From IMG/VR virus record IMGVR_UViG_3300046829_000015, positions 1-23,140 of that record: a stretch of 23,140 bases of DNA. One strand, written 5' to 3'. Positions 6,260 through 22,882 of the stretch are shown one piece after another. The position numbers and the translations under genes were made by a program. This DNA is from a virus. Below the pieces are notes generated by a model that was given only the letters and a program-made list of their open reading frames with translations, did no database searches and was not told the origin of the DNA. How positions within the stretch are numbered: the stretch's first letter is position 1; every line of letters begins with the position of its first letter.

Positions 6260-6272
6260 GTTTGAGTCAAAC
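6260..6272. repeat. Dispersed palindrome, perfect
   Basis: GTTTGAGTCAAAC directly followed on the minus strand by AGGAGG of the 406-residue gene. Confidence 0.9.
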
Positions 6273-13662: not shown

Positions 13663-13675
13663 GTTTGACTCAAAC
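13663..13675. repeat. Dispersed palindrome, perfect
   Basis: GTTTGACTCAAAC 1 nt after the major capsid stop. Confidence 0.9.
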
Positions 13676-13676
13676 G

Positions 13677-14645
13677 CTAGTTAGTGAGGAAGGCATGCGT
13701 CCGGTAGTTGCGCCATGTGCAGAGTTGACCTTCCCACACGACGCGACGACCCGTAGCATCCATCGACCACGGTGCAACAAGCTGCTTGATCTTCATGTTG
13801 ACACCACGCAGCACATGCAGCGTCATGTAACCGTCATTGACAAAATACGCCTGATTGGCGTTTAGCTTCTCGTCGAACAACAGCGGAATGCCGTTGTGCG
13901 TTGTGCCGACAATCCCCAGATTGACAAGTTTCTTGCCAGTTCCGGTGGCATCCAAGTCGATGTGCTGCTTGTCTCGGGCCGCAGCCTTGTGCATTCTGTA
14001 GATGTTGCGACCGGCAAAGATGACAGTAGGCTGCGGAGAGCTTTGGCCGTCTGTTGACCGATTGAGGTCAAGTTCGGTGATGTCATCGAATGCCTCCTCG
14101 ATGTTCTCAGGCGTGAGCGTCCCTGTGAAGTCGTACGCCGACGTTCTCCACTGGCTCTCCGTCGCCATGCTGATGCCACCAACCGAGCCACTGGTAGGAT
14201 CAACCGGAATGAGATTGCCGAGACCGTTTGGGTCGGTTCCGGCGCCCACACTCGTATGGTACATAGCGAACTGACGAGAGATGGACTCATCTAGAGCCAT
14301 GATCTTGCCCTTGATGATCTTGAAGATCGCCGCACGACCCTGGTTCTCGTCCTCTTCCTGGTCGGAGATAATAAGCGATCCGACGACCCGTGACATGAAG
14401 TGATTGACCGTCACGAATTCGTTAGTCTGGTTCACCGGTACAGTGTCGTAGTACTGCATCGATGTCACATTGGGATTGAGACCAGTAATCAGCGGATTGC
14501 TGATCTGCGGGCCGCCATCCTCGACCACCACACGCTTCTTCGCATGGAGGTATGCGCTGACTGTACCGGAAATCGCAGATGCCATAATCAGCTTGGCGCG
14601 GCTGCGAGTCAACATAGCGTTGACAACCGTATCAAGAGTTGCCAT
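13677..14645 (-). CDS. Major capsid protein
   Basis: 322 residues from the second of two tandem ATGs (14645, GGGAG 7 nt upstream; the first at 14648 would be only 4 nt away). The size fits an HK97-fold podoviral coat protein. Features consistent with it: the N-terminal helix LTRSRAKLIMASAISG, a VNHFMSRVVGSLIISDQEEDENQG stretch, FKIIKGKIMALDESISRQF (backbone-helix-like), LGNLIPVDPTSGSVGGIS followed by QWRTSAYDF, and a strand-rich C-terminus ending in a Trp/Arg/Tyr-rich segment. It follows the scaffold gene directly, the usual order. I infer the fold from pattern and context, not from a search. Confidence 0.85.
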   Translation of the reverse strand: MATLDTVVNAMLTRSRAKLIMASAISGTVSAYLHAKKRVVVEDGGPQISNPLITGLNPNVTSMQYYDTVPVNQTNEFVTVNHFMSRVVGSLIISDQEEDENQGRAAIFKIIKGKIMALDESISRQFAMYHTSVGAGTDPNGLGNLIPVDPTSGSVGGISMATESQWRTSAYDFTGTLTPENIEEAFDDITELDLNRSTDGQSSPQPTVIFAGRNIYRMHKAAARDKQHIDLDATGTGKKLVNLGIVGTTHNGIPLLFDEKLNANQAYFVNDGYMTLHVLRGVNMKIKQLVAPWSMDATGRRVVWEGQLCTWRNYRTHAFLTN

Positions 14646-14659
14646 CATATTACTCCCGT

Positions 14660-21571: not shown

Positions 21572-21778
21572 TTACGCGCGATTAAGCATAAAGACGTTCG
21601 GCTTGACGCCGTTCGCCGTCCCTTGCATGAAATTCGGATTGCAGCCAGGCTCAGTATGCCCGACATTCGGCGGTACTAACGCAGCTTTCGCAGTGTTCAC
21701 TGTCACCTGCGCCGCAACCTTGACTGAGTTTGCCTTATGGACCGCATCCATCTCAGCCATACTCTGATCTTGTGCCAT
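21572..21778 (-). CDS. Hypothetical small protein
   Basis: 68 residues from the ATG at 21778; a GTG one codon earlier is also possible. The stop of the upstream gene overlaps the start (TGATG). The first half is a likely helix (MAEMDAVHKANSVKVAAQVTVNTAKAAL), the second half irregular with NVGHTEPGCNPNFMQG. Not recognised. It belongs to the small-gene cluster that opens the late operon. Confidence 0.6.
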   Translation of the reverse strand: MAQDQSMAEMDAVHKANSVKVAAQVTVNTAKAALVPPNVGHTEPGCNPNFMQGTANGVKPNVFMLNRA

Positions 21779-22047
21779 CACATCTGCTCTTGCCGGATGG
21801 CTTGCTCAGCATCAATCGCAGCCTGCTGATTCTGCAACTGTTCCGCAATGATCGCCGACTTCACTGCGACTTCCGTTTCCTTGTCCCACACACCCTGCGG
21901 CATGTCTGCATTCGGATTGAGTTCCGGCGACCCTGCCGCCCTCCACTTCGCCAGTTCCACCTGGACAATCTCGTGAATCTCGGCCCGCTTCTTCTGTGCA
22001 TGCCGATCAATGATGTCTTGCGTCTGATCTGTGGTGGGTCCGGCCAT
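21778..22047 (-). CDS. Hypothetical helical protein, first gene of the late operon
   Basis: 89 residues from ATG 22047, chosen because AGGAG lies about 8 nt upstream, directly behind a perfect palindrome. The open frame extends to 22152, but that part would cover the leader hairpin. The protein is almost entirely helical and charged: TTDQTQDIIDRHAQKKRAEIHEIVQVELAKWRAAG, then ETEVAVKSAIIAEQLQNQQAAIDAEQAI with coiled-coil character. No family recognised. It is the first gene downstream of the predicted late promoter and leader. Confidence 0.7.
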   Translation of the reverse strand: MAGPTTDQTQDIIDRHAQKKRAEIHEIVQVELAKWRAAGSPELNPNADMPQGVWDKETEVAVKSAIIAEQLQNQQAAIDAEQAIRQEQM

Positions 22048-22059
22048 TTCAAGTCTCCT

Positions 22060-22072
22060 GTTTGAGTCAAAC
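22060..22072. repeat. Dispersed palindrome, perfect
   Basis: GTTTGAGTCAAAC between the leader hairpin and the ribosome site of the first late gene. Confidence 0.9.
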
Positions 22073-22086
22073 ACCGGCTGGGAACC

Positions 22087-22137
22087 AAAAAAGAGGTGGG
22101 GACCGAGCGCATTTGCTGACCGATGCACCCGGTCCCC
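22087..22137 (-). terminator. Terminator-like hairpin with T tract in the late leader
   Basis: Read on the minus strand: GGGGACCG (22137-22130), a 24-nt loop that can pair internally (GCAT/ATGC), CGGTCCCC (22105-22098), then ACCTC and six T residues (22092-22087). The perfect 8-bp GC-rich stem plus T tract fits an intrinsic terminator, but the loop is long and the T run begins five bases after the stem. It lies between the predicted late promoter and the first gene, so it could act as an attenuator. Confidence 0.5.
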
Positions 22138-22315
22138 TGTAAAGATGGGCATGGCACGAGGGTAAAAGCAGCGGCCGCGACGCGCTCATTACCCACTTCA
22201 CTGGTCGTCTCAAAAAGCACCCGGCCTCCAGGTACTCAAGGCTTCCAAATAGGTGCGCGCTGGAAAGGATTAAAGACACGCGCAGCTATACCATACAATC
22301 CCATCATTACAACCA

Positions 22316-22344
22316 AATATAGCACATATTCGCGTGCGTGTCAA
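22316..22344 (-). promoter_or_regulatory. Predicted late promoter (sigma70-type)
   Basis: On the minus strand, TTGACA (22339-22344) and TATATT (22316-22321) are separated by exactly 17 bp, and a TG one base before the -10 makes it an extended -10. Transcription would start near 22309 and read the whole structural operon after a leader of about 260 nt. It shares the sequence ATGTGCTA just before and into the -10 with the promoter at 22831-22859. Confidence 0.75.
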
Positions 22345-22358
22345 GCATTATTTTCACT

Positions 22359-22472
22359 AAACTATCAATTTGATAGCACTTTTTTTTCAACAAACTATCA
22401 AAATACACCACAAAATTCACTGTTTGACTCAAACAATACTCAAAAACGCACCACAAAACTATCAAAATACAC
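22359..22472. promoter_or_regulatory. Repeat cluster upstream of the late promoter
   Basis: AAACTATCAA occurs three times (22359-22368, 22392-22401, 22456-22465). The last two extend to the 17-mer AAACTATCAAAATACAC, and the first forms a 15-bp palindrome CTATCAATTTGATAG (22362-22376) lying 17 bp upstream of the -35. A perfect GTTTGACTCAAAC lies between the second and third copies. The stretch is A/T-rich with a T8 tract. The arrangement suggests a regulator-binding region. Confidence 0.5.
22422..22434. repeat. Dispersed palindrome, perfect, upstream of late promoter
   Basis: GTTTGACTCAAAC about 80 bp upstream of the -35. Confidence 0.9.
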
Positions 22473-22486
22473 AAAAAATACACCGT

Positions 22487-22499
22487 GTTTGAGTCAAAC
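22487..22499. repeat. Dispersed palindrome, perfect
   Basis: GTTTGAGTCAAAC; supplies the stop codon of the zinc-ribbon gene. Confidence 0.9.
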
Positions 22500-22724
22500 A
22501 GCAACCGAATGCACGCTTCCGAACAGGCTACCAAGCATTGCACAACCACTACAACAGTAATGACTCCACTTGCCATCCTCTTTGCACATCTTCCAATGCT
22601 TTCGACGTACCAAATCCATGGCATTGGGCCAACCTTGATTAACGCCTACGACCAGTCTTCTATCGCATCCATCGCATACGAAGGTAACAGTACCCTTTCG
22701 CTGATAGCTACGATCAATAGCCAT
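22494..22724 (-). CDS. Small zinc-ribbon-like protein
   Basis: 76 residues from ATG 22724 (AGG 8 nt upstream; a GTG three codons earlier is an alternative). Two CxxC knuckles, Cys17-x2-Cys20 (CDGC) and Cys58-x2-Cys61 (CSGC), with additional Cys47, Cys57, His43 and His55 between or beside them, suggest one structural zinc site. Charged, no membrane segment. It is expressed from its own consensus promoter (22831-22859) and lies directly upstream of the predicted late promoter, so a regulatory role is possible but unproven. The stop TGA is inside a perfect palindromic repeat, and another perfect copy precedes the gene. Confidence 0.7.
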   Translation of the reverse strand: MAIDRSYQRKGTVTFVCDGCDRRLVVGVNQGWPNAMDLVRRKHWKMCKEDGKWSHYCCSGCAMLGSLFGSVHSVAV

Positions 22725-22830: not shown

Positions 22831-22859
22831 ATTTTAGCACATTTCTATTCATTTGTCAA
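22831..22859 (-). promoter_or_regulatory. Predicted promoter of the zinc-ribbon gene (sigma70-type)
   Basis: On the minus strand, TTGACA (22854-22859) and TAAAAT (22831-22836) have a 17-bp spacer and a TG extended -10. The expected start is near 22824, about 100 nt before the ATG. A 19-bp dyad lies 4 bp upstream of the -35. Confidence 0.75.
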
Positions 22860-22863
22860 TGGG

Positions 22864-22882
22864 GTGCGACAATATGTCACAC
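22864..22882. promoter_or_regulatory. Imperfect 19-bp dyad next to a -35, possible operator
   Basis: GTGCGACA-ATA-TGTCACAC: the two 8-base arms match at 7 of 8 positions. It lies immediately upstream of the -35 of the zinc-ribbon promoter, a usual site for an activator or repressor. Confidence 0.45.

Follow-up and report, generated by a model that had tools for sequence, protein, structure and literature searches.

A predicted late promoter and its structured, terminator-bearing leader RNA in a phage group found in metagenomes

Ahead of the virion genes of a phage group found among viral contigs and metagenomes only, a strong promoter, a -10-like element at the predicted RNA start and a structured leader RNA recur in eight diverged clades. 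At about even confidence, the sequence comparisons favor an activator-controlled late promoter whose transcript would be gated by a terminator-bearing leader, with read-through supplied by some other factor or by the leader RNA. This late switch appears lambda-like in layout, and membership of the Q type is not claimed. The window, which is the whole 23,140-nucleotide stretch of DNA that was analyzed, is a 23-kb fragment from this group of ~44-kb phages. No prophage relative was found in a search of bacterial and archaeal species genomes, the leader had no DNA match among phage isolates, and in the phage isolate comparison the capsid protein was at most 25% identical to those of Mx8/Mx9-type phages. 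Among complete genomes, G001 is the nearest relative; a DNA polymerase I-type gene lies in its leftward arm, and its late arm runs rightward for ~26 kb. In the open reading frame list of the window, the first late gene (89 aa, 21778..22047, on the minus strand, as are the control elements and the zinc-ribbon gene described below) starts the virion operon, with the terminase, portal and capsid genes downstream. Terminase identity to the window is 76-100% across the eight diverged clades. The major capsid protein (13677-14648) is 95-100% identical between genomes whose terminases are just 77-100% identical, and an early gene of G001 (L150:16892-19363) encodes a uracil-DNA-glycosylase-like domain fused to a family A DNA polymerase. 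A search for a T7-type RNA polymerase gave no match, but its control was also silent.

The late promoter, TTGACA-17-TATATT with an extended -10 (22316..22344), is predicted to be of a strong sigma70 type, with an 11/12 match. It consists of TTGACA at 22344-22339, a 17-nt spacer and TATATT at 22321-22316 with TG ahead of the -10, and it gives a predicted +1 of the late RNA at A22308, in agreement with a sequence-only reading of this DNA that had proposed an extended -10 promoter and an RNA start near 22309. The generic scan counted 3 promoter-like sites in the window compared to 2.5 in shuffles, which is not significant alone, and its output of 3 promoters and 4 terminators, close to the count in shuffles, was not taken as evidence. 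Support for the late promoter comes from its being conserved at the matching position in relatives, not from the scan score: it is identical at 36 of 36 positions between the window and L015, L006, L011 and L012, and a promoter is present at the corresponding place in all eight diverged clades. A broader scan for the upstream motif of the promoter, AAAATARTGCTTGACA, returned many contigs whose kinship was not established and was set aside.

The first transcribed bases, AATGATGGG (22300..22308), contain a -10-like hexamer, AATGAT, that occupies the predicted +1 to +6 and runs into GGG, and by comparison with relatives and with lambda pR' they represent a possible sigma-dependent pause element. 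The motif AT[AG]G was found at offset 11-12 in all eight late promoters and in none of 15 early promoters, a contrast that was spotted post hoc and that involves related promoters that are not independent. Across the eight clades, a 6-7 nt spacer is followed by a -10-like hexamer and then GG, with G009 as the exception (AGG); the eight sequences are AATGAT-GGG, TTGGAT-GGG, TTGAAT-GGA, TCAAAT-AGG, TCAAAT-GGG, TTAAAT-GGA, CTGAAT-GGA and TTGAAT-GGA. Promoters near the same gene in G014-G016, which are distant members of the family, lack the RAATGG element. As the -10-like element lies inside helix P1 of the leader (see below), its conservation could stem from RNA pairing. The lambda sequence was also checked; pR' reads AACGATGGG at record position 44587, and the U-tract of the lambda terminator begins 188 nt later. 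The lambda -10-like element is likewise at +1 to +6 and has been connected with pausing at around 16 nt (PMC4604602). A leader peptide beginning at an ATG near +1 was considered by eye and rejected, as G009 carries ATAGG and the frames vary by clade.

Comparison among the clades supports a leader RNA that folds into two neighboring hairpins, with the 5' end of the RNA itself closing the first. For the window leader the fold energy is -97 kcal/mol (z = -3.6), with none of 200 shuffles as good, and fold z-scores range from -2.5 to -3.9 in seven of the eight late leaders, with G005 reaching only -1.1 and most early leaders near zero. Helix P1 pairs a 5' strand, GTAATGATGGG (22300..22310), with a 3' strand, CCCATCTTTAC (22139..22149; fold, permutation test and covariation), and every clade has a leader whose opening 8-12 nt are able to pair with the segment just ahead of the distal hairpin. 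P1 is part of the minimum-energy fold in most members, the window and G005 excepted, in which a competing fold is slightly better. A clade's own P1 partner is the best or tied best within 300 nt in 7/8 clades, and swapped partners match the own pairing in only 5 of 40320 permutations. In the alignment of the two-hairpin leader across clades, 97.4% of cells are paired and 15 of 19 pairs have changes on both sides, with pairing falling to 36-57% in slid versions of the alignment. Since the paired strands of this alignment were chosen by hand, its pairing count leans towards structure, and the P1 permutation test leans less. Hairpin P2 has two-sided changes with pairing kept, both within the clade and across clades. 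The first leader domain is identical at 165 of 166 positions between the window and L015, L006, L011 and L012, in which coding gene B is 85-89% identical, such that nearby coding DNA is less conserved than the leader. An Rfam search yielded only sub-threshold chance matches in the leader region.

Two terminators are predicted within this leader. Terminator T1 (22212..22235) is an 8-bp hairpin, with its stem in the 165/166-identical domain, that runs at once into UUUUU (GUACCUGG-AGG-CCGGGUGC-UUUUU) and ends at approximately +94 to +97. Hairpin P2, or terminator T2 (22087..22137), comprises 15 bp, ACCTC and U6, with a fold of about -29 kcal/mol and compensatory changes; its hairpin spans 22137-22098 and its T6 lies at 22092-22087, 178-222 nt from +1, with a U-tract that begins 3-5 nt past the stem, which is not ideal spacing. 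Neither was listed by the generic scan. T2 bears out the earlier proposal of a GC-rich hairpin with six T residues some 170-220 nt after the RNA start and before any gene. The accompanying leader RNA of ~220 nt matches the T2 end and misses the first expected one, as the better-spaced T1 comes before T2 and would put that first end nearer 97 nt than 220 nt. A strong leader terminator, with a hairpin closely trailed by a U-tract, occurs in four of the eight clades (the window's clade, G007, G009 and G010); G002 and G005 have only a weak U-tract and G004 and G008 have none, which indicates that termination would not be universal. A terminator scan of the late strand in five genomes (G001, G002, G007, G009 and G010), with block-shuffled controls, placed the leader hairpin as the top terminator-like match in three: the T2 hairpin of G001 (-30.2 kcal/mol, strongest of 8 matches), G007 (-20.1) and G009 (-18.4, strongest of 8). 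G002 had no leader match, its top match (-19.5) lying ~16 kb downstream, nor did G010, whose top match (-19.4) is at offset 430, past the leader; the G010 leader terminator, with only four T residues, was detected in the separate leader comparison. Processive antitermination through stops inside the late operon was considered and rejected, as match numbers did not exceed those of block-shuffled controls in the five genomes.

The lambda-style scheme of late control was established in phages that infect enteric bacteria. The layout of the window resembles lambda pR'-tR' in its strong promoter, in the -10-like element near +1 followed by GGG, and in an untranslated leader with a hairpin terminator at about +190 to +220 and the late operon next (PMC4604602). 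This part of the lambda reading stood, as the layout recurs in diverged relatives with the +1 element in 8/8, and the part that guessed at a role for the zinc-ribbon protein gained no support. Unlike lambda, the group has no match to the lambda or 21 Q families (PF03589 and PF06530, searched in 7 genomes) and no clear Q-binding repeat, with no direct repeat seen by eye between -35 and -10 in the aligned clade spacers, where the extended -10 was seen. The search for 82 Q (PF06323) was without a working control and is not readable as absence. The window also differs from lambda in having an extra operator at -61.5, a covarying 5'-end helix and a second, earlier terminator, and in placing virion genes rather than lysis genes first in the late operon. 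A similar order of promoter and then leader terminators before the first gene exists for AlpA, a Q-like bacterial antiterminator of Pseudomonas aeruginosa whose targets include one promoter with two terminators (PMC7969949). AlpA, however, acts through binding to a defined element that lies in the -35/-10 spacer, and no such element or protein was identified in the window.

The extra operator may connect the late promoter to the early region. Putative operator O2, GCTATCA-AAT-TGATAG (22362..22377), is centered at -61.5 from the predicted +1. Its pattern, GCTATCA-N2..5-TGATAK, has exactly two occurrences in G001, compared to a block-shuffle mean of 0.13: one is centered at -61.5 relative to the late promoter and the other at -18.5 relative to the main early promoter; in summary form the palindrome is GCTATCA-N3-TGATAK. 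Near the early promoter, the pattern lies between -17 and -18.5 in G002, G007, G008 and G010, with G008 carrying it at both early -18 and late -62, and G002, G009 and G010 have further copies off the listed promoters. The spacing between TGATAK and the late -35 is exactly 17 nt in 6/8 clades, with TGATAK on the 5' side, and the late promoter of G005 (clade F) is without O2. An operator common to the early (-18.5) and late (-61.5) promoters suggests a regulator that represses the former and activates the latter, and it puts activation on at least an equal footing with antitermination as the likely control point. One candidate O2 binder is a conserved early protein of 64-69 aa (L151:1623-1829, minus strand) with a weak ribbon-helix-helix resemblance, for which no match was significant and model confidence was low. 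Pfam and PHROGs searches of the conserved early genes found no antiterminator.

In the favored model of an activated promoter with a gated leader, this region would control the ~26-kb late (virion) operon with RNA starting at ~22308, and one regulator would probably shut early transcription and turn the late promoter on via the common operator. As the first transcribed bases repeat the -10-like element, sigma-holding RNA polymerase would probably pause there, and the nascent RNA would fold as the two covarying hairpins with the first closed by the 5' end. With U-tracts on both domains in the window, unmodified polymerase would be expected to stop at ~+97 or +220, before the genes. Read-through would then be required for late expression, and it could come from a phage antiterminator recruited at the pause or from an action of the leader RNA on polymerase.

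The readings that compete with this model divide the same evidence differently. Phage phi29 p4 represses early promoters and activates late ones (PMC3100819), and the window resembles that switch in apparently having one operator type over the early promoter and upstream of the late promoter. A p4-like regulator bound to O2 could accordingly repress the main early promoter and activate the late one with no antitermination step, the hairpins just stabilizing or insulating the late mRNA and the U-tracts being leaky, an account that we consider a less probable but serious one. The p4 precedent, the O2 positions (early -18.5, late -61.5 or -62), the half-site distance fixed in 6/8 clades and the absent or weak U-tracts of half the clades all speak for it, but it leaves the late-only +1 element and the well-placed U-tracts in several lineages unexplained and does not accommodate the G005 late promoter without O2. 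The window further differs from phi29 in operator sequence, in a consensus -35 at its late promoter and in the added leader terminators, and the p4 family (PF05464) had no match in 7 genomes. It is doubtful, though conceivable, that the leader RNA is itself the antiterminator, giving protein-free passage of its own and later stops in the manner of HK022 put. HK022 putL, which carries a -10-like element, forms two stem-loops from nt 3, just past its promoter (PMC9378689), and the two adjacent covarying hairpins from the 5' end of the window leader, with the -10-like element in the initial transcribed region, are similar. In contrast to put RNA, which acts on early operons and not late ones, the window leader belongs to a late operon, has no Rfam match and carries U-tract hairpins in some clades, its domain-2 hairpin being also a terminator in the window and G007; its stems turn over quickly in sequence and vary freely from clade to clade, as a fixed surface for polymerase binding would not.

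Two further readings are both very improbable. The sequence-only reading had guessed at a role in late control for a small zinc-ribbon protein encoded directly upstream of the late promoter. Such a gene exists (22494..22724, read 22724-22494; 76 aa, with CxxC pairs, CDGC...CCSGC, zinc-ribbon-like, with no Pfam family above the cut-off), and its position, as that of Q in lambda, its own 11/12 promoter (22831..22859; promoter scan and relatives) with an upstream palindrome, O1 (22881-22864; promoter comparison), and a 40% identical paralogue in the early arm would suit a Q-like antiterminator, the more so as unrelated Q proteins can substitute for each other. The gene is confined to the window's clade, however, and is absent from six other complete, diverged genomes in which the promoter and leader are retained, its place there being replaced or empty; a general partnership with the leader is therefore not the case. 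Even within its own clade it has diverged to 44-45% beside a leader that is 165/166 identical (at the gene level, it is 61-62% identical to the window in L015, L006 and L011 and 99.6% in L012). The zinc-ribbon gene is probably a neighbor and not part of the late switch. Its paralogue (L149:3420-3599) encodes 59 aa, and a second palindrome like TGCGACAATATGTCGCA (22864-22881) lies just upstream of many early promoters and usually not late ones. There is similarly little chance that the short RNA is the product itself, such as a packaging or regulatory RNA beside the terminase genes that is ended by design. Very high leader conservation, a 5' end sealed in a helix and strong structure in most clades would fit an RNA product, but half of the clades have no clear RNA end before the late genes and the leader shares its strand and position with the late operon; no use of RNA is known for terminases of this kind.

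A more elaborate combination, which we regard as a long shot, is a switch with two locks, in which a dual early/late regulator would be joined by a 5'-sealed leader RNA, loaded at the sigma pause, that acts as a protein-free antiterminator of the 26-kb operon. The occurrence of a lambda-like plan in an unrelated phage group from which the two testable Q families are absent suggests that the plan arose repeatedly or predates Q. The strongly covarying leader RNA and the common early/late operator are both short enough for direct in vitro work.

Finally, a palindrome, GTTTGACTCAAAC (22060..22072), lies between the leader and the ribosome-binding site and is one of 24 copies of GTTTGASTCAAAC in the window (at most 2 mismatches), compared to 0.27 expected. 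Eighteen of the 24 are at gene boundaries or intergenic (copies include 22060-22072, 13663-13675 and 6260-6272). Related genomes have 17-40 copies each, with none in reversed controls, and more distant members of the family have few or no copies of the palindrome. Candidate roles include a stoperator-like binding site, an RNA element or a recombination boundary. Similarity between the window and L011, L006 and L015 resumes near the copy at 22422-22434, as if at a mosaic boundary.
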